Assembly: GCF_029227915.1 (NCBI RefSeq)
Contig: NC_079876.1
Coordinates: 12,462,001-12,526,000, forward strand
Origin: Hydractinia symbiolongicarpus
Lineage: Eukaryota; Cnidaria; Hydrozoa; Anthoathecata; Hydractiniidae
Length of the DNA stretch: 64,000 nt
Direction of reading: 5' to 3'
Below the pieces are notes generated by a model that worked only from the letters and a program-made list of their open reading frames with translations, ran no database searches and was not told the DNA's origin. Shown here piece after piece: positions 1,203-28,698 of the stretch. Every line of letters begins with the position of its first letter. The first letter of the stretch is position 1. The position numbers were made by a program, and so were the translations under genes.

Positions 1203-2625
1203 CCCTTCCCGCCCCAGGCATTTTTTAACACATTATGTCCCTGATCCCAGGCGTTTTTAGCAAAAAAACACATTTTTCGTAAATTTTATTAGTCTAAAAT
1301 AAACCTTAACAACTAATTTAAAGCATATACTATGTTTAAAATGCATGTAAGGTATTTCCCTTTTTTAAAAAATGTCATAAAGCATTATCAAGTCCCGGTT
1401 CGACTCCGGTAATAGACAATTCAGTAAGAATTGTAAGTATATAAAAGGAAAGTTGCCAATCCGTCTATTAGCCATGCTTAGATTGTGCTCAATGGACCAC
1501 AACCTATGCTTAGTTAGTGCTTTAGACCAGCAAATAAAAGGAATGTAAGAGGAACTTCTTATCAAATATATAAAACATAATTTTGAGATATATAAAACAT
1601 AATGTATATACTAAAACGTTATCAGTTTCTCAGTTCTCTATTCAGACATCATTTGAATATATTTACCAATGAAATCTTTATAATTATGATAAAGCATCCA
1701 TTTTTGACATGACAGTTCTTGGAAATGGAGTAAAAATAGTAGTGTCTGTTGACCAATAAGACTTTATTAAATCTTTTTTACTATGCCGAAATAAAAAGTC
1801 AAAGCCAAGAACCTTGACATTTTTTTCAGTGGAGATTCCATTTACTGGCCATCTAGCCAGGTCTGAAGAGGAAGGAAGACCATCACCAGCTTTTTTAAGA
1901 AATTCATGAGCATGGCGACTAGTTTCAGTAGTTATATCATAAATAATTTCATTGGTGATAAACAGTTTGAAAAAATAAAGTTCGTCGGCATCCTCATCCT
2001 CAGACATTTATTCCAGGATTTGCAGCAAAATGGGGCAACTTTTGTAACTTCTTGTCACCAGATTTCCATTGCCCCATGTTCCAACCATGAGGGTTTGGTT
2101 CCCTTCTAGCTTTCTTCGAACTAGGTTCTGCCAATTCATCATTATCAGTTGAACTTTCATCAACAAATTCTTTCCCACCATCAGAAAATCCAAAAAAATC
2201 TTCGTCATCACTATCACTCCGGCCAAATAATCTGTTAATTAGATCATCACTTGCTACTACATCCTCATCGCTATCCTCTTCAAGGTTTAATTCATTAATA
2301 GAGAAGCCAAATGATGCATTACTGCTGCTAAAAGGCGAAGATCCAGAGCCACAGCATGCTCTAAATCCAGTCGCCATCTTTGTTTTAATTTTTAAAAGCA
2401 AATCTGCATAACTTACGGTAGCCGAATTTAAAAATCGTCAGATCAAGCGCAAATGAGAGATAAATTATTCTAGTGTTAAAAAAATCGATCTTGTTAGTTT
2501 TAAAGATACAGGGCGGCCGTGAGGGCCGTTCAAAGTGGTCCTAGTGAAATCCCGGACCTGTCCGAGATCGGGATTATTTTAGTGCAGCAATATCCCGGAC
2601 TAGTCCGGGAACGGGACGGGAAGGG
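1203..2625. mobile_element. piggyBac-type DNA transposon, internally deleted
   Basis: The element is bounded by TTAA on both sides (1199-1202 and 2626-2629), the hallmark target duplication of piggyBac transposons. The ends are inverted copies of CCCTTCCCGnCCC (13 bp, one mismatch). Just inside the right end lies a perfect 18-bp palindrome at 2593-2610 (TCCCGGAC/GTCCGGGA around CTAG type centre) and a second imperfect one at about 2551-2570, probably subterminal transposase-binding sites. It encodes only the first part of a transposase on the minus strand. At 1423 bp it is well short of autonomous relatives, so it looks non-autonomous. Confidence 0.8.
1684..2401 (-). pseudogene. piggyBac transposase N-terminal part, frameshifted and truncated
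   Basis: Two overlapping minus-strand frames (2401 to 2000 and 2007 to 1684) join by one frameshift near 2003 and read as one protein start. It has an acidic Ser/Asp-rich leader, then the piggyBac N-terminal pattern: Pro-Gly-Ile-Asn, Y-F-F-K-L-F, an I-x-x-I-T-x-E-T-x-R-H-A segment, a Trp-Pro, and a late Y-W-S-T-D. These match the DDE_Tnp_1_7 family before its catalytic core. The reading stops after about 240 residues, before the catalytic Asp residues, against the roughly 550-600 usual in the family. A start at the second Met (just after the first) is also possible. The protein cannot be an active transposase as it stands. Confidence 0.75.
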
Positions 2626-4864: not shown

Positions 4865-7800
4865 ATCGACTGGCACTAGCCTACAATTTATGTACAAAAT
4901 TTATACAAGACACAAACGTTGCACCAGATCGTGGAGAAGAATTTTGTTATTCATTGTTTGATTATGATTCAGAAAAGGTTTCTAGCATATTTTCGAACTC
5001 CTGGATTAAGTATCCTGTATTAGATTGTATTTGTGAATGGTTGTTCAACAATACAAATCTTCATTTCAAAGATGTTGTTGTGACAGTCAATAAGTGTTTG
5101 GTGAAATGTGGAAGACTGTCTTATGAGATAACAGAGGAAGACTTAAAACATCCCTTCCACGAAAATGAAGGTAAATATTTGTAACATTCATTTAAAATAA
5201 ATCAGACAAATTTTAAGTATTTCGTCTACATTTTAGCGGAAGTTGGTTATCATTCAGTTGCGTTTAAACCAAAAGACAGAAAAAAAATATATCAGTACCT
5301 TGCACAGGAGATATCAGCATGGGACATACGCTACTTAGCACATTTCTTGATTCCTTACAACGATGTAAACAAAATATATACTAACAATGTGGGGAATATT
5401 GAAGGAGTTATAGCACGTGTGTTGGAAACCTGGGATAGGAAATCACCTTCTTGGAATTGTCTGAAATCAGTTCTAACTTTCTTACAAATGGAAAAACATG
5501 TTACTGACATTGAAAGTAGGCTATATTTATGTTCCAATTGCTCTCCATCATCTTTTGAGAATTTTAATATTCTAACATGTGAGTCTAATAATTTTTAAAG
5601 TTATGCTGGAGGAGAGTCTGCTCATTGATCAAGACATTTTTAGGTCAGTTAAGTCTATGCCTTATGAGCTATTTTGATACGAGTCATTAATTTTATTATT
5701 TCTTTCTATTTTATAACGTGATAATTTTGTTAACATATTGATTGTGTGATTATGCTCGCGTGAGGCAGGCAAAAGCTATAGCATGAATTTATAACAAAAA
5801 TAGTCGCTTTATGTTGACACATTAATTTAAATTTCATATAAACAATGCAACAGTTTTATTTGTCATAAAAAGTCTGTATCGTGATATCGGCCAAATGACG
5901 TATGTATTTTTCTTTTTGTAGGTGGTGTGCATATGCAAGACAATTATGGTAAGTCTTACTTTGACTTGCCGTTTACCAGAAGCCTGTTTTAAACTTATAA
6001 AATTTTGTGACAAAGAAGAATTCGTTAGATGTTTCTTCCTTTTTTGTAAAAGCGTAAATATCCTTGCAGAATGTCAATAAATATAGGATAGGTTTATTAA
6101 GTTGCTATATTAGTTTGTTGTGGCTTCTGTATGTTCTACATTTGAAATATTTTCAAATTATTTACAAGTATCATTTATTTTTAATTTTAGACCATGAAAT
6201 AGCTGTACCAAGGTAAAAATGTTCTTAGTCATAATTTAGTTTTCATTAGTTTAAATGCTATTTTCATTAATGTTAAAAACGAAATAATTTTTCCATTTTA
6301 GCTATTTAATGTACAAAGACCATCGGAAAAATCTTGTCATACAATTTGACAAAAAGTGGTCTGTGGAAACTGTCCACAGCGTTGTTAGTGCAACAACTGC
6401 AGAACATTGGAAGCAACTTTGTTTAGATGAAGATTTCACTATCAAAGAAAAAGAAGGAAGATTATTTCTGATTATTTGCAACAACAAAGCAGATATAAAA
6501 AAAATATCAGTTTTATTAATCCATGAAAACAAAAAATCTCAAAAAGTTTTGATCAATGGTAAGTTATTTTATTACATTTATTATCTTTTATTGTGTTTAT
6601 ACTCAATTTGTGCTGCTTAAATAAACTACTCACATAAGTTTCCGAGGAATTTCCTCATCATGTTACTAAAGTTCGTTAGAAAGAAAGCTGCGTTTTTCTG
6701 AATGATTGTTTTAAAATCCTAAACCTTGACATTTTTTATTTCTTTTCTTGTTAGCTCTAACAAAATTATTTTTATTGGTAGAATAAACTTTAACGAACTT
6801 AAACGAAAAAATATAATATAAAAATATATATATAACTCAGCCTTTCAATAAAAAATCTGTAAATCAAATCAATTATAAAATTTCTTATACTTCTTATTCC
6901 ATTATTCTTCAAGGTGCTATTCACAAGCTTAAATTTTTGCAATATTTTCTTCGCAGACAATTCCTTTCCTAAAAGCATATTTATTTTATTTAGATATTGA
7001 ACTGGCAACTATACATAAATGTCCGACAACCGATTATTTAAATGTCATCACTCACAACAGTCGTTTGATATCTAAGCAGATAGAGTCTATTGTAAACAAG
7101 GAAACAAAAGAAGCAGATATCGAATTTATATGTGGTGGCAGCCTGAAAAGAATGTCAGCCAAAGCATACGAAGAGTATGAAAAAGATTACTCTGATCAAT
7201 ATTTCACCATCAATGGCAAGCGCATGGAGGAACCACTCCAGTTCCCACCTCCAATCTGTAACCAAAAATCTTCTGTATTTGCACAGAAAATGAAAGATGT
7301 CATACTAAAGTTAAAATACCAGTTTTTTACGATATTTACACATTATGATAGCAAGGATCATATCCAATTTTTGAATCTAAATGAAGAATTTCCCTTGAAA
7401 AGCAATATATCTAATGATAACCGAATACTACTAGTGTTTCTCAAGACATTGATAAACATTAGATACACTGATACAATCAACGCAATTGATATACAAGATG
7501 AGTTCAAAGCAGGCGAGACAGACCTTAAGGAATTATCCATCATCAATAAAAAATGTTTTAAACATGGTAATTGGACCATAATTAATGTTGTAGCTGCACC
7601 AAGTTTTAAAGTCAGCCAGGATACTCAAATATGTGTAAACTGTAACTTACTCTGTAAGAAAACACTATCTGAGGAAAGCAAGATTCTGGACTTTTTTTCT
7701 AACCTTCTACAGAATGCACACAAGAAAAGCAGCCGTGATGACGCGAAAGAACAATATATATCAATGGTTAGCAAAATAATGTGCTTTATGGCCACACGTA

Positions 7801-10800
7801 AAGCACTTTATACTGTTCCTTCACTTAGTGATAATATTCACGAGCAAATAAGTTCACTGATACTAAGTATACAGCAGCTTCGAATTTTGTATAGCAAATG
7901 TCAGAAGAAAATTATAACTGGTCCGTTAGGTAGTGGCAAAACTGTTTTAGGGTTATCTCACTTAGAACTTGCTTATGAATACTGTAAAGAAAACTCCATC
8001 ATTTTCTATGTAATTTGGGATGACAAAACATTACTAAAACAAGACGTTTTCAATTATGCTAATAGATTTAATTACAAGAGCAATGTTGATGTTATCGTTA
8101 CGGATATTGTCCAGTTAGCGAAGGATATAGAAATGCCTAAGGTTCCAACACCCTTACAGTTGTTTAAGTCGTTAGTTGAGAAACATGTTGGTAAGCAACT
8201 ACATTTTATACTTGACGAATTTAATGGTGAGATGCTTGGAATTGAAGAAGCATTATCACTGAAAAAATACTTTGAAACAGAAGCTAGGTTAGAACACTCA
8301 TACATTGTTGTATTTCCACAATCCATTGAAAAGCATAGATCCTTCGTTTCGCATGAAACAATCACAAAGCATGACAAATATAAATATGAGGAAACAGGGT
8401 TAAAGTTATATAAGCTTGAAAGGGCGATGAGAACATCTGAATCGATCTTTCAATTTTTAAGAGCTTTTGAACAGTTAGCAAGCAAAGGAAAAACAGTGAT
8501 TAAACTTCCTGTGCAAGAAGCCCAGCAAACGGTTAATACAAGCGTCGTTGGGACATTTTGGAATATTCTACAAAAGTTATTTTCCAGTTTAAAACAACCA
8601 GTACAACAGCCCCACAAATTGCAACAACAAGCAAATCAATCACAGCAACAATTACTGAAGCAACAACAACCAAAAGAGATTACTACGCCTTACAGAGATT
8701 TTGTAGAAAAAAATATAGACAGCAACTTTGAGGCTCTAATTGATATTGATCGTCTTGCAACGGCAATCCCAGATGAACATCTTTCAGATGTTGTAAGAAC
8801 AGAAACAAATTTTCATTTTAATTCAGCAGCTTTTATTGGTCATAATATAAAAGGTACCAAACCATTGTTGATACACCCTGAAGAAAAGAAAACAGAAGAA
8901 AAGGAGTTCATTCCAATGTTAGCTTTAGTTCTTCAAGACATTTGCTTGCATTACAATACTAAGCGTTTATTTATTTATAACACATATCATCAAATGACTA
9001 TATTTTACAGATTGCTGAAGCTATTAAACTTGAATTTTTTTCATTACGACGAGTCTACTGAATGGAAACTTTTAAAAAGCAATGAAGAAATCCCGGATCT
9101 TTTGCAATATTCAAGCTACAACATACTCACTACGCCTGAGGGTAGTCGTGGCATGGAAGCAAGTGAGTGCATCTGCCTAATTGAAAACAACGACTGCACA
9201 TTAAAACATTTAACATTGGAATCGATGTCTAGAGCTACACAAAACCTGATCATTGTTTCAACATCGAACATTCACCTATCTAAGTATTTATCAACTGGTC
9301 ACATTATCAAAGAACTTTTACGTGAATATTTAACTGAATATATTGTTACACATTCTGAAGAATTGGACAGTGAAAAACCATACACAAAAGACAGTGTGGA
9401 TAAAGTAACTTTCAACATAAATACACGATCCCGTAGGTTTGAAGAATTATTAAACAACATTGAACATATTGATCATCCTCAAGCAGCCCCTGTAACTGCA
9501 AATGTGGAAGAGATAATTTTTAAATGGTAAGCAGTTGGTAATGTTTAATTGCCCTGATTATGTTTCTGTGTTTTATTGTGTTGTTTTAAATCTTAACCTT
9601 AACACGTTAAACAAATGTTGTTGTTTTTTCCACCTCTTTCATAGAGGTATACTATGATGTGCGGCTCCTTGAGTAAAATATTTAGGCTAAATAATATAGT
9701 GGGGTTTTTTTGAGTGTAAGAATATGAAATGATAATACCCATCTGGCCTAAAATGGTATTTCCCGTTTTTATTACTAAATTTTTAGCGAGCATTTTTAAA
9801 ATTTTCTTAAAAAAGTATTTGAGGTGTTACAAAATATCAAACCCTTCAAAAACTAGGATTTTGTATTGTATAGAAACATGTCTAATCAATTATTCATTTC
9901 ACTTTAGCCTTCATCCTCCCGAAAAGGTTGACAAGATAACCTGCTTCTGTTTGTCAGAGAAATCATGTGAATTACGTTGGCAGCATAGTGCTGATAAATA
10001 TACAGTTAAAAAGAAAAGCAACTATTTCGATTGGGAAATTTTGGCAAGTGGTATTACATCTAACACATTCATCGTAGATGACATCAGTATAGGAGAAATT
10101 TGCACATTTTCAGTAGTTGCGGATAACCAAGTGGGTCAATCTGATGACAGCATTTTTTCATACCATCATAACTGGTAAGGTTAATTTAGATATATAGATA
10201 TATAGATATCGATATGTAGATATAGATATATAGATATAGATATAGATATATCTATCTGTATGTAGATATATAGAGATATATAGATATATAGATATCGATA
10301 TATAGATATAGATATAGATATAGAGAGATATAGATATAGATATAGATATAGATATAGAGAGATATAGATATATAGATGTAGATATAGATATATAGATATA
10401 GATATAATATATATATATATTTTTTTTTAGGCCTCCAACATTTAAAGGTAAGGATATTTAATATTTAACATTATATTAAAACTTACGGCCATTTATATGA
10501 AAGTAACCATGATACACAGTGCAATATTATATTTTATTTTCTGTTATTGCATTGAGAGGTTACTTTTGTAATATAATTTTCGGTATAACTACCACATTTT
10601 ATGTGTACAATCCTTACTTTTATCTGGTTTTAACATGAATTTCCTGGGTTTTTTTATTGTAAGCGAATAAGCAAGTATGATACAAAGAATTTTAATTGAA
10701 GTATAATAAATATTTTTACCTGATATAGTTATTTGTATTTATTATATTATTTGAAGCACTTACATAGGAAACGATATTTGAGTTAATACAAGTCCTGATT

Positions 10801-13800
10801 TATAAGTAAAATACTGATAAAGTAAGGGGCTAAAAACGAGCTGTTGATTTTTGACATTAGTGACTTACACAAAGAATTGTAGAAGCAACAAGGGCAATAA
10901 ACAACACCCTAAATAATCTTGATATTATATTGGATAGCCAATATAACTGAAAAGGATAACAAAAAGGAACCTTAAAAATAATGGATATTTTTAATTTTTC
11001 TACACAAGCAGTTACCAAGTTTTCTGCTTAATGAAACTTTAAACTATTTTGACCTGGCTAGATAGCTATTCCCTCCTAAATTCTCCACATAAACATATCA
11101 AATTATGGTTTATAAACTCAAGTTAAGGCAACAAATTCTTTTTAGATGTATTAATCACCTTTTTCGGCGTAAGTATATAAAAAAGGTGTGTTAATTTAAA
11201 ATGCTTTTAATTCACAAAAACTTTATTCTTTGATACATTAACCCTATTCGCTCCGGGGTTTTTGCGAACATACTATGACTGGGGGGGGAGGGGGGCGGAT
11301 TCCGCCCCCCCCTCAATAACTTTTCATAGGGTTGTTCAAATTGAATCAAACTTGGCACACTTATAGTACGTCATAAAAGAAACAAAATGGCGCCAAAAAA
11401 ATTTTGCTTGCGTCAGCACATTTTCTGTGACGTCATCAAAAGCTTAAAAATTGTTAAAAATGCCACTATCTGCTTAAAATATAATTACTTTTGTTCTAGA
11501 GTGAATTTTTACATTCTGTTTGAAGTTTCTGAAAGCTAAATAAAAGTTATTTAACATATCTTCCGGTTTTTACATATATCGGATAAAAAATTGCCCGAAA
11601 AACCGGTTTTTTCCGATTTTCGAGTAAAATCCGACAAAATCGGGAAATCGGATTAGTCACGTGTTCAAATTTTTCAAAATGTTTCTTCTTAATGAAGCAA
11701 AGTTGTGTTGCAAGTTTCAAGTTCTAAGGATAATCATAACAGGAGTTATTTTATTTTCTCCATTATAAGGATTTCATAGAGATTTTTAGGGGTAGTTTCG
11801 AGTAATGGCCAATATCAAAGCCTCTGAAAGGTATGGGACCTAAAAAATTTGCATGCAAGTGTCTAATAGATAAATGTTGAAACTCAGTAAGTATCATAAC
11901 CATATAACACAAAGCAATCAGGAGTTATTAAGAAAAAACCGACAGGGGGGGCGGAATCCGCCCCCCCACTCCCCCCCCCCGGACCGAATAGGGTTAAGGT
12001 ATATATTTTTAGAAAGCTTATATGATTTACTATAAAAATATTATAACTTTAAGGTCAGAAACTTTCGCGGGAAGAAAGTTTCGGGGATAGCCTAATTTCA
12101 GATATTTCGCGAGAAAAAACTTTCGCGGAGAGAAAATAATAAAGACAACTTTTTGATTTATATATCTATTTTTTTTATTTTTTAATCAATTTCTTTTCAC
12201 GTTTTTTTTTTCTGCTTGTCATTTGTTCCTCGAGACATTTCGTTATTTCAAACGACAGGATTAAATAAATGTTTGTTAAAAATTTTACGGGAAAAAACTT
12301 TCGCAATTGAGGCATTTTGAAAAATTTTGCGGGAAAAAACTTTCGCAATTGAGGCATTTTGAAAAATTTTGCGGGAAAAAACTTTCGCAATTGAGGCATT
12401 TTGAAAAATTTTGCAGGAAAAAAACTCTCGCAATTGGGGCATTTTGAAAAATTTTGAGGGAAAAAACTTTTGCGAAAGGGCTCGAAAACCGCGAAACCGC
12501 AAAACTTTATTCCAGCGAAAGTTTCTGACCTTAAAGTATTAAGAAAAAATAAAGTTTAAAGATTTAATAGACAAGGATAAAAAAACGATATATTTATATT
12601 ACACAATTTTTAACTATGATCGTCGTTTTGTACTTGAATGTTTTTATGTTAGCAAGCTAAACCAGTGTAAGATTAGTGGAATAACTTCAATTAAATAATA
12701 TTATTTAAATATAGATATATATATCTAGATATATTATATTAGTTTTGTCTACCGAAGTCACACTCGTATCTTAGAGTTAAAATTGGACTAGCTCAGCACG
12801 ACAATAACTAATCCGAAAGTAACTAACGGTAGGGGTCCATACGACTCCATTATTCCCTTAAGCGGAAAATGTTTGAGAGCTTTTTCCATAAGCATGCACA
12901 ATGAAGTCGTATGACTGCTGACTGACGACAATCCCATAGCTTAGGATCTGCATGTCGGTTTACAATCAAATTTTGTGAGTAAACATATAGGGCCTGTACA
13001 AGCTTACCCAGAAATTTTTTGTGCACACCAAGTTGCAGATCCTGAGTTATTGGGTCATCAGCAAAAAATAAGATTTAATCTGTTGACGATGACGAAGATG
13101 GTGATAATTCTGTGATTAAAAAGAAAGAAGTTTCTATTGCCACAACGCTAACAATGCTTGACCAGCTTATAGAACCAAACGATCTCAATAGAAAGAAAAG
13201 GAAACTCTTTCCTCCATTAAGGAGAGTCTAGATCATTTATCCATCGACTGGTGGTCTTATGGTGGAGCGTTCGCTTCCAGTGCGGTAGGTCTTGGGTTCA
13301 AACCCCGGCCAAGTGATGCCAGAGACATAAAAGTGTGAATCTACCCTTTCTGCTTAGCGCCCAGCATGAGAATAGGATTGATATCTTAGGCAGTTGTCTA
13401 GTTGGGCGATTGCTGTGCTTGCACGACTTTCGTAGCTCAAATGGGAGCTTTAAATGCACTAAGACGCCTTTCCTGGACCCTCTTAAAAAGTAGGAACTGA
13501 AGAGACTATCATTTGTTAAAATTTGTTTGAGAGACTTTAAAGATCTGTAAAGATTGAAAGTTTTATTCGTTATCATTATGTTAATATTATATCATTTGTT
13601 ATTTTTCCTTTGTGATACAAAAATCGGCTTTATTTTCTAATTTGCGGCTTAAAATGTAAAACCTTCGAAAAGGCGGACACTTCCAATTAGCGAACACTTT
13701 GGTGATACACCGACGGTGTCCGTTAAGTGAAGAGTATACTGTTTTGCGAATTTTTGAAAATCGAATTATTTTGTTTTTGCTATGTTAAATTACTACGAAA

Positions 13801-16722
13801 ATTAGCAAACGTTTTTATAGGCTGCCGATAGCCTTCATTTAGGAAACTGCATTAAAATGTAAGCATGTAAATTCCGTCAGTTAGGAAAGTGGCCGCTGAC
13901 GTAAAAATTAATAATGGCAGTAATTAAATTTGGCGGGCGGTAAAAAGAAATGACGTGAATTTAAATTGTCAGCCATCAAAAGAATTATTCCATAATATTT
14001 TAAAGATAGTACCCGAATAGTCCTACGGCTTTTAAGTCGGTGGAACTGTAAAATGAGCTCCTTTTTTGTTGCCCTTGTTACTACCGAGACTAGTTAAGCA
14101 AAAAACGGTACCAGTGTAGTGATGCATAAAATTATTAGTTGTTGTGTATTGTAAACAGAACTGTACGTTGTTAAACAAGATCATGAAATCAAGCTTCTAA
14201 ATTTTTAAGTACTTCAATCTTTCCCAAAACGTCTATTTCTGACATACATCCTAAGTAAATAGTCACTGTGTTGGAGAGCTCATTTCAAAACAGTTCTGAG
14301 TCGCAGCTTATTTATATGCTAGAGCATAGGATGCTTTAAATATGAAGAAATGAATTGATTTAAGGATGTGTTGTGAATTTATTGTTAATTTTAAAACTTT
14401 ATATAAACAAGCGAAGAAGTTAAAAAAACATTCATAGCCATAGTTTTTTTTCTAAAAATACCAAGATTACGAGCTACACGGTTTTTTTTATAAGAAACAT
14501 GTTTATAAGAAACCGACATGTAGAATTTTCAAATATTAAGAAACTTTTCAAATTAATTCTTACAATTAATTGAAGATGTTAAAATCATCACTATTGTGTT
14601 GTTGAGAAACGGAAAAAGGTTATATTTTTTATATTTTTTAACCAACTAGTCCAAAAATTAAAGAAACTTTTAGAACTAGCTATTTATTTGATATAAGAAA
14701 TCCATATTTTGCTAGGAAAATTAAGAAACTAAATCAAAAATATTTGTAACTAAAAACGTGGAATTTCAGCCAACAAGTAAGAAACTAGGCCCTTCAGGTT
14801 TCTTATAAAAAAAACCTGTAGCTATTAAAATGCTCTTTCCCGTTGCGATATGGTAAATAAATCAGACAAAAATCTCGTTGCGAAGTACCATCCAAACGAA
14901 AACCATGCTAAAAACCAGGAATTTGGGAACAGGCCTAAATTAAACCATACTGTGTCAACACCCATGAAATGATACATCAAAATTATTTTCACGTGAAAAG
15001 TTGTGTTTATAAAGATTAAAAAAAAATGAGTGTTTTGTTGCTGACGAAGCTTTATAATGTCGTTCATGTATAATCGCGCCAATTATTTCGCAGTTTTAGC
15101 AGGGGAGAAAATTGCAAGAAAACACAATTGTCGGTGAATGGAGAAAGAATTTTAAGAGAATTCGTAACCTAGATTGTTCTTATTTCGTAACAAATTAAGA
15201 ATTAGGGTCTGAAACAAATGATTGAGTCCAGGCTATTCTTGTTCTGTCTCTATTTTTCGTCAATATCTGAGGCTCGTGTTCTTATAAAATTGTTCTTATA
15301 AAACTTGTGCACCAAAAATTAAAAAAACAGAAGTGGTTCTGAAAACAGGAAATATATTTGTGTCGATATACAGACAATTAGCATAAAATTGAGATCGCGT
15401 GTTAAAAAATGTCTTTGACGCGCACGGTCGCCTCAGAGGAATGAATGCAGACAAAATCGAATATTTTGTATCCAATTTTTCTATTTTTAAAAGCATATCT
15501 TTCTTGGCTAAGTAAAAATTTTTCATTTGATCGAACATTCTGTGATAAACAAGACGTGCCAGGTGAGAAATATTTTTTTCTACTGAGAAAATCATTTCTG
15601 TAGGTAGTTTTGGATTATTTCAAATTTGCTAAAATATTTCTCCCAAAATTTTCTGTTAGTGTAGATTCCTATATTGAACCCGCGAAGTTTTTTTATTTTG
15701 TTTCATTTTAAAAACAAAAGCATTTTAAACATATCTATTTTTTCAACTAACATGCTTATGTCAGCATGAAATAGGCAAAACACATATTTTGAAAAATTGT
15801 CTCCAAATGCGAATTATCCTATACATGATGACGTCATCACATTATTAATATTTTAAATTTTGTGTTCCGTCTATTTGTATTTATATTTTTGTTTTACTTG
15901 TCTAAAAATTAAATATATTAACAATTTCTTATTTATATTTTCAAGTTGACAAAGTATTCTTATTTCAGACAATAATTGTTTTACGCTTTGATCTGCATAT
16001 GATGACGTCATAATAATATTATTACCCTAAATTTGTTTGTTTTTATATTCTAAAATTTTTATAATTAATACTGAATATTTATCATAATATTAACATCCTT
16101 TTTTTAATATTTTCATGTTTATATAATGTTTTAGTCTCTCACAATAAACAAATCCTTTTTTAATATTGTTATCATGAGTTATATTTTTATAAATTTATAA
16201 ATTCATTCATTTATTATTTTATTTTTAGATATCAAGAAAATTATTAAATCTAACGATATCGAGAAACTGAAAAAATTACTATCCATTCATCCGAACATCG
16301 TTCACATGAGAGGTGAAGATGAATACACACCATTGATGTGGACAGTACTGTTCACCAACAATACATCAATGGTGGAAATACTCATCTCATATGGGAGTGA
16401 TGTTTGGGCGGAAGATGGATGGAAACAAAACAGTTATCATTTGGCTGCATATCGTGGTCGTCACACAATATTAGATATGTTATGTCGACATGATGTAACA
16501 AACATCAACCGTGGAAATGTTCACAACTTCACACCATTATATGAATCTGCAGATAATGGTCACATCTCATGTGTTGATGTTTTGTTGCGTCATGAAAATA
16601 TTGATGTGATGATCAAAGATATATATGGAAGAACAGCTTATGATGTTGCTGGAGGATTGATGAATGAACAAAACCGGGAAATAATAAGACGAAAAATAAA
16701 AAAATACGAAGTAAGTTATTAA
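4865..16722 (+). CDS. Death-fold / SF1-like P-loop NTPase / FN3 / ankyrin protein (5' end missing)
   Basis: Nine exons keep frame: 4865-5170, 5237-5578, 5922-5948, 6191-6212, 6302-6558, 6994-9526, 9908-10174, 10431-10447, 16229-16722 (about 1420 codons). The second exon matches a Death domain: I-Y-Q-Y-L-A then [15 protein letters not shown] and a closing L-x-x-L helix. The sixth exon holds an NTPase with Walker A GPLGSGKT (7920-7943) and Walker B FILDEF (near 8211). Late motifs SRGME and MSRAT resemble UvrD/Rep motifs V and VI. A fibronectin III domain (9908-10174) and about four ankyrin repeats (16229-16722) follow. Death domains recruit signalling partners and ankyrins bind proteins, so a cytosolic sensor or signalling scaffold is plausible, but that is inference. 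The first exon is not found. The last exon may also splice on, since GTAAGT lies 13 bases before the stop. Confidence 0.8.
10183..10422. repeat. GATATA/TAGATA microsatellite filling an intron
   Basis: About 240 bp of TAGATA and GATATA units with a few variants (GATATC, GAGAGATA). It occupies almost the whole intron between the FN3 exon and the 17-base exon at 10431 and runs right up to the T-rich acceptor tract. Confidence 0.9.
11242..11993. mobile_element. TTAA-flanked MITE with GC-rich hairpin arms
   Basis: TTAA flanks both ends (11238-11241 and 11994-11997). The ends are inverted copies of CCCTATTCGnnCCGG. Just inside each end sits a G-run or C-run containing GCGGA(A)T(C)CGC, so each arm can fold on itself and pair with the other. 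The body is AT-rich and non-coding. It lies in the last intron of the Death/NTPase gene. A 5' copy of the same family is at 47192. Confidence 0.8.
12046..12537. mobile_element. Inverted-repeat element with internal 41-bp tandem repeats
   Basis: The 23-bp ends (12046-12068 and 12515-12537) are perfect inverted copies beginning ACTTTAAGGTCAGAAAC. Inside, between about 12270 and 12475, a unit of about 41 bp containing TTTTGCGGGAAAAAACTTTCGC and AATTGAGGCATTTTG is repeated five times in tandem. No intact gene: the open frames here are artefacts of the repeat. Confidence 0.75.
13252..13530 (+). mobile_element. tRNA-derived SINE
   Basis: The head has RNA polymerase III promoter boxes: an A-box-like TGGTGGAGCG near 13258 and a perfect B box, GGTTCAAACCC, near 13294. 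The B box is followed by an unrelated body (AAGTGATGCCAGAGACATAA onward) rather than an acceptor stem. This is the plan of a tRNA-derived SINE. No proper cloverleaf can be closed, so it is not called a tRNA gene. The 3' limit is approximate. Confidence 0.6.
13660..13742. mobile_element. Tigger/pogo-type terminal repeat fragment
   Basis: Read on the minus strand, the segment starts CAGTATACTCTTCACTTAA and continues with GGACACCGTCGG and repeated GTGTCCGC/GTGTTCGC words. Ends of Tigger/pogo elements look like this. No transposase sequence is attached; it seems to be a solo end or small MITE. Confidence 0.45.
14472..14823. mobile_element. 352-bp MITE with TATAAGAAAC ends
   Basis: The two ends (from 14472, and to 14823) are inverted copies reading AGCTACA(C/G)GTTTTTTT then TATAAGAAAC, about 28 bp with one mismatch. 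The interior is AT-rich and repeats the word TAAGAAAC. It sits in the last intron of the Death/NTPase gene. No coding capacity. Confidence 0.65.

Positions 16723-28698
<11,976 letters not shown>

Follow-up and report, generated by a model that had tools for sequence, protein, structure and literature searches.

Among described systems, the nearest precedent for the gene family studied here is found in the NLRs of fungi, which likewise combine varied effector, NTPase and repeat domains, and whose WD, TPR and ANK repeats are described, in the passages cited, as internally conserved and as undergoing concerted evolution within and between family members, with positive selection acting on the concave ankyrin surface (PMC4986451). 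However, the ATPases of fungal NLRs are NOD modules of the NACHT type, and their repeat number varies within a locus (same passages of PMC4986451), whereas the Hydractinia proteins have a helicase-like core and carry their repeats in a one-exon cassette of near-fixed length, devoid of structure between lineages whose NTPase silent sites are near saturation. Within the same phylum, cnidarian NACHT proteins bear front domains of the same kinds (DZIP3-HEPN, DD, TIR), but on a NACHT core, and the part of that survey cited here mentions no exchanged hypervariable ANK exon (PMC8260672). Fusions of HEPN domains with ankyrin, NACHT, CARD or Death domains are on record for various animals, but the cited text on DZIP3/hRUL138-type HEPN proteins mentions none that joins HEPN to a hypervariable ANK exon and a core of SF1 helicase-like type (PMC3710099). 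Finally, DARPins have in common with the Hydractinia ankyrin exon a constant scaffold and diversified positions, which are said in the passage cited to form the DARPin paratope (PMC8683736), but the Hydractinia exon is natural, varies at position 10 too and lies inside a multidomain protein. Among open-licence PMC papers, we found none on hypervariable ankyrin repeats in Hydractinia and, for HEPN in Hydractinia, only the cnidarian NACHT survey (PMC8260672). Compared with these systems, we place the Hydractinia family among NLR-like variable receptors, its core being unusual and its pattern of exchange striking. On balance, and with modest assurance, we favour the reading that they are NLR-like receptors built on a Schlafen/UvrD-type core, in which the recognition exon is diversified by selection and inter-gene exchange.

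The whole stretch of DNA analysed (64,000 nucleotides, hereafter the window) corresponds to C2:12462001-12526000 of the 481-Mb genome of Hydractinia symbiolongicarpus and contains the gene LOC130629467. As the sequence-only reading had proposed, nine exons with AG/GT borders at each join into a single frame of 1,399 amino acids, the last exon being open to the stop. In window positions, these exons are:

4865..5170, + strand, first Death-like candidate, coding exon of ~100 aa (11 genome matches)
5237..5515, + strand, second Death-like candidate, coding exon (21 genome matches)
5922..5948, + strand, linker micro-exon, from the spliced frame
6191..6212, + strand, linker micro-exon, from the spliced frame
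6302..6558, + strand, coding exon before the NTPase (a similar stretch is seen by eye in relatives with other front domains)
6994..9526, + strand, large exon with a pre-helicase module and a predicted SF1 helicase-like NTPase (GPLGSGKT, LDEF, SRGME, MSRAT)
9908..10174, + strand, fibronectin III exon, weak alone (E 0.088)
10431..10447, + strand, micro-exon PPTFK at the FN3-ANK joint (same joint in P0002)
16229..16710, + strand, hypervariable ankyrin cassette exon (donor at 16711)

The same reading had placed the gene start at 4865 and the end of the last exon at 16722, and both limits have to be moved. The annotated protein starts with MDYD, and the sole match to that exon pattern within 20 kb upstream lies at C2:12456832, a start-exon candidate ~5.2 kb before base 1 of the window. 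At the other end, a GTAAGT/GTGAGT donor follows the KEYE codons in 30 of the 30 ANK exons examined, so that the exon ends at 16710, the stop at 16722 being reached by the open frame only via read-through of the donor; annotated relatives have a few extra residues past the ANK exon (ARKK, DRTK). Isoform X2 of LOC130629467 (P0001) matches the spliced frame at 100% up to and including the FN3 exon, after which it ends without ANK, a point that counts against the main reading. Hence, the membership of the ANK exon in LOC130629467 rests on paralogs with an FN3-PPTF-ANK arrangement, such as P0002, the FN3-linker-ANK continuation being present in both P0002 and P0013. Moreover, P0005 (1,475 aa) and P0028 (1,330 aa), whose longest contigs measure 4,575 and 4,287 bases, feature HEPN, FN3 and ANK, and since these contigs barely exceed the coding length, they are presumably transcripts joining front, core and ANK. 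With these corrections, the nine exons named in the sequence-only reading are confirmed. In the introns of this gene, a GATA-type simple repeat (10190-10410) and a ~42 bp tandem repeat (12270-12500) were seen by eye. Elsewhere in the window, an 845-codon open frame (21625-24162, minus strand), which resembles a two-module AAA ATPase of SPATA5/AFG2-like type, stands out as an uninterrupted single exon, while frames at 1684-2437 (minus strand) resemble a piggyBac-derived transposase fragment.

A Death domain had been suggested at the front of the protein. Pfam Death was recovered in 2 of 9 homologs of exon 2 (best E 0.016) and in 0 of 9 homologs of exon 1, the two sets comprising nine of 11 and nine of 12 pieces, once duplicate and stop-bearing pieces had been left out. 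In the PDB, exon 2 had 0 matches and exon 1 had three (E 0.1-0.19), none of them Death. The Death fold is thus a candidate, a point that counts against the main reading. The front domains of the relatives are HEPN_DZIP3, TIR_2, a Death-like pair or none annotated; P0021 associates TIR_2 (E 9.3e-17) with ANK, and P0004 associates HEPN_DZIP3 (E 2.8e-18) with ANK. The NLR-like layout (signalling front, NTPase, repeat sensor) is found in these two relatives, while the front of LOC130629467 itself is Death-like at best and its ANK comes from the spliced frame. Between the front domain and the NTPase, P0009 has a very long repeated coiled-coil-like stretch (NQDDIKANKD...). As for the proposed C-terminal FN3 and ankyrin repeats, the ANK exon matches Ank_2 well above threshold (E 8.5e-22, 78 bits vs. 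a cut-off of 27.3), whereas the FN3 exon of the window reaches 13.5 bits for a cut-off of 25; in relatives, fn3 scores above this cut-off in P0004 (31.1) and P0020 (25.2) and below it in P0013 (22.3) and P0021 (21.7).

The motifs on which a UvrD-type helicase had been proposed (Walker A GPLGSGKT, Walker B LDEF, SRGME and MSRAT) are all found in the large exon and conserved across ten sequences, down to 22% identity, with most key residues invariant and the rest at least 90% conserved. The features of SF1 (UvrD-type) proteins are present, i.e., Walker A/B, helicase motifs III-VI and, in the structure model, a tandem RecA-like fold. The best structural matches of the predicted NTPase model are SF1 helicases, with no NACHT entry among the best 50 re-ranked from Foldseek's top 1000, and no NACHT or NB-ARC profile matches the NTPase. 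The structure model leans towards SF1 rather than NACHT/NB-ARC, next to weak matches below cut-off to NPHP3_N (best E 0.00035 in members) and nSTAND3 (E 0.031 in P0030). Since the hhalign yardsticks are weak (UvrD/Rep E 0.019, MalT E 0.03, RhlB E 0.28), the SF1 fold call rests on the structure model; a PDB sequence search with the NTPase returned no match for the single sequence and one chance match (E 0.49) for the profile. Regarding group III Schlafens (SLFN11, SLFN14), the Hydractinia proteins differ in having no Pfam Schlafen match above cut-off, with none for residues 1-280 of the large exon, and SLFN structural matches begin at model residues 12-58 with a high rmsd. We know of no FN3, ANK or TIR/HEPN/Death-like partners in either SLFN11/SLFN14 or UvrD helicases. 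Altogether, the model shows a predicted helicase-like fold of SF1/UvrD type. An ATPase of helicase type (Schlafen/UvrD-like) may therefore be able to take the place that NACHT or NB-ARC has in NLRs.

The family has a multidomain architecture and many members. The NTPase search of the genome yielded 68 matches, corresponding to at least 54 merged loci, at least 39 of which are on C2; these counts are lower bounds, 54 of 117 NTPase and 150 of 345 ANK candidates having been scored. Of the 54 loci, 51 have an ANK exon on the same strand, at most 20 kb downstream. In divergent members on C14 and C15, the Death-like exons are followed by an NTPase, by an exon that looks FN3-like by eye and by ANK. 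In-frame stops (one each) interrupt the NTPase exons of L006 and L073 among intact copies; some members may thus be pseudogenes. The third protein search returned 21 matches, all from Hydractinia or unlabelled 'lgn' records, except P0030, an ENA record with 24% identity in the NTPase module that could show the reach of the family; none of the pattern matches to relatives in bacterial and archaeal genomes (532) or in IMG/VR (103) was confirmed. A 2019 survey of the immune repertoire of H. symbiolongicarpus, cited in PMC8260672, may describe some of these genes. LOC130629467 is one member of a large, lineage-expanded family, whose products are probably intracellular defence receptors. In addition, C1 seems to hold a second large family, TRIM-like and with a related ANK exon: the one locus read, L080 (C1:31662000-31669900), has by eye a TRIM-like RING/B-box joined to such an exon. 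Eleven cassettes of this TRIM-ANK family, inspected by eye, show variation at comparable ankyrin positions, but their pooled dN/dS is only 0.77 despite the relatedness of the cassettes, which counts against the main reading.

The hypervariability of the ANK exon sits at the expected contact positions. Over the whole exon, pN/pS is 2.39 (30 exons, 29 distinct), and 16 of the top 20 variable columns fall on the 20 DARPin columns of 160 (p 5e-15), i.e., on ankyrin positions 2, 3, 5, 13 and 14, which we take to be those randomised in DARPins; the repeat register was set by eye, and position 10 was added to the contact set after seeing the data. dN/dS amounts to 4.6 at DARPin columns vs. 1.4-1.7 at other codons, the latter value counting against the main reading. 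In eight close genes, pooled dN/dS is 0.33 for the NTPase and 2.43 for ANK (L066, missed by the search pattern, is lacking here as well as in the sets of 42 and 41 exons). The contact sites also outpace their flanks. In the 71 of 150 pairs with alignable upstream intron for which upstream divergence is below 0.08, median divergence is 0.030 upstream and 0.026 downstream, compared to 0.435 at positions 1-2 of the 24 contact codons and 0.040 at other codons; eight disjoint pairs, hand-picked from 40 listed of the 71 (the pairs not being independent), give 2.0% for the flank vs. 43.8% for the contact positions. Contact haplotypes are distinct in 40 of 41 cases, and the contact residues include 15% Y, 12% R and 8% W. 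L039 (C2:7004899) and L040 (C2:12152404), ~5 Mb apart and identical over 3.5 kb, either arose by duplication very recently or were duplicated in the assembly, and L043/L057 have all 22 contact codons in common; these non-diversified copies count against the main reading. L040 was left out of the intron-divergence, linkage, invariant-column, lineage and residue/stop counts. Such variability is as expected under intense pressure to recognise changing targets.

In addition to being hypervariable, the ANK exon is for the most part without lineage structure. Across 41 loci with ANK identity of at least 70%, identity to the window ranges from 37 to 80% for the NTPase and from 74 to 84% for ANK (Spearman 0.015; the window itself and nine loci with ANK below 70% were left out, and 64 of 153 ANK matches were entered by hand). 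In those nine of 50 paired loci, ANK and NTPase diverge together, which counts against the main reading. NTPase and ANK distances are uncorrelated in 16 proteins (Mantel r -0.09, p 0.89; P0010 and P0011 left out), and mean ANK distance is 0.210 in 29 close NTPase pairs vs. 0.208 in 63 far pairs. For six between-lineage pairs, NTPase dS goes from 2.5 to saturated, while ANK dS is 0.027-0.063. Two lineages with NTPases ~38% identical have no fixed ANK codon difference (27 vs. 14 exons), and codon identity within lineages and between them is 0.210, 0.230 and 0.205 at contact codons and 0.881, 0.886 and 0.882 at other codons (41 exons).

When the window ANK locus is aligned to ten other-lineage loci, the main block consists of the exon with 14-495 bp upstream and 44-64 bp downstream, besides which there are a few short, weaker blocks. 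To state that cross-lineage homology is confined to the ANK exon would nevertheless be too strong, as several copies (L026-L054, both lineages) have a 93-95% identical block ~0.8-1.4 kb upstream, often separated from the exon by unalignable sequence; this block, which counts against the main reading, can be a longer exchanged stretch or a shared repeat. In the young pair L044/L054, the NTPase regions differ by 7 mismatches in 5,531, the ANK exon is identical over codons 33-104 and then differs, and the downstream flank is unmatched (461 mismatches in 1,509), a configuration that points to a recombination break inside the ANK exon. The lack of lineage structure and this mid-exon break favour exchange, and the exon is most simply kept alike between lineages by gene conversion or recombination.

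Likewise, the supply of variation is most simply attributed to cassette exchange combined with strong diversifying selection. Alternatively, a targeted mutagenesis (cassette editing or hypermutation, in the germline or somatic) might create the contact-codon variation, selection acting as a filter, an explanation that we find rather unlikely. Several observations would suit it: ten close copies do not differ from all other pairs in contact-site identity (0.256 in both); contact sites are near linkage equilibrium except for adjacent codons (21-70 codons apart, 9-11% pass p<0.05); L027 and L030 have zero amino-acid substitutions in aligned NTPase codons (dS 0.004) for an ANK dN of 0.109; and the youngest non-identical pair displays an adjacent two-base change at codons 31-32. 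With flanks diverging by 1-3%, the contact sites already appear saturated, so that a targeted mutational process may also contribute. Furthermore, cross-lineage runs of at least five contact codons occur in 2 of 378 pairs (longest 6), whereas shuffles give a mean of 1.3 pairs and runs of up to 9, so that no donor block is identified, the six contact codons common to L030 and L067 included; this slightly lowers the main reading and slightly raises the mutagenesis alternative. Yet codon positions 1-2 account for 45 of the 53 high-entropy columns, which is what selection would produce, and the L044/L054 break is of the kind predicted by recombination. Diversity-generating retroelements (DGRs) produce variation at template adenines, so that invariant columns should hardly be A. 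Here, A occupies 107 of the 283 invariant nucleotide columns, which disfavours DGR-type editing.

A second alternative, to which we give no more and no less credence than to mutagenesis, concerns function rather than mechanism: the family might serve to tell self from non-self (allorecognition) or be engaged in another arms race, for instance the control of selfish elements, instead of antimicrobial defence. Hydractinia is a model for allorecognition, and both the extreme diversity between copies and their clustering (39 of 54 loci on C2, as lower bounds) would fit such a role, while the front domains, which by sequence appear to be of intracellular signalling or nuclease types, argue against it. 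It is much less plausible that we are dealing with an ordinary repeat family, in which the ANK exon would be homogenised and its contact sites relaxed rather than selected. High copy number and recent duplications, as in L039/L040, are compatible with this view, but contact sites diverge ~21x more than flanking introns, and relaxation alone cannot surpass the neutral rate; that comparison contradicts the repeat-family view, except if a recent homogenisation had affected the flanks and bypassed the exon, and contact codons contain 0 stops vs. 26.6 expected from independent base use. Least credible, if by little, is an assembly artefact, in which uncollapsed or mis-joined haplotypes would mimic copies as the L039/L040 identity at a distance might suggest, for misassembly would not put differences at contact codon positions 1-2 in intact frames, and if some pairs were alleles, the result would be extreme allelic polymorphism instead.

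The analysis shows the architecture, the helicase fold (in a model), an ANK exon lacking lineage structure and hypervariability at the expected contact positions. We return to NLR-like receptors with a selected and exchanged recognition exon, for which we infer an immune role and, by analogy with NLRs, a ligand, a switch mechanism and a signalling output. The ankyrin face of the C-terminal exon would be the recognition surface and bind the target, and binding would be relayed via FN3 to the SF1/Schlafen-like helicase core. This core would act as the switch, through an ATP-driven change or oligomerisation, and free or cluster the front domain. The latter, a Death-like pair in LOC130629467 and TIR or DZIP3-HEPN in its sister genes, might then set off cell death, signalling of NF-kB-like type, RNA cleavage or NAD loss. 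Exchange would keep the ANK exon alike between lineages, while diversifying selection would scramble its contact codons. The interpretation given in the sequence-only reading is supported in part.

A bolder possibility, which we hold to be slightly less probable than either mutagenesis or allorecognition, is that Hydractinia has an anticipatory, antigen-receptor-like system, in which ankyrin cassettes would undergo active, repeated diversification of their paratope codons and would move from one receptor gene to another of differing output (Death-like, TIR, HEPN, perhaps TRIM), possibly within the long-lived stem cells of the colony, yielding natural DARPin-like repertoires. It is an open question how recognition can be specific in animals that lack antibodies. 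In this family, the exon presumed to mediate recognition is uncoupled from its host receptor, and the residues expected to make contact change faster than the neighbouring introns. As Hydractinia is a genetic model with clonal colonies, the question of recognition becomes directly testable.
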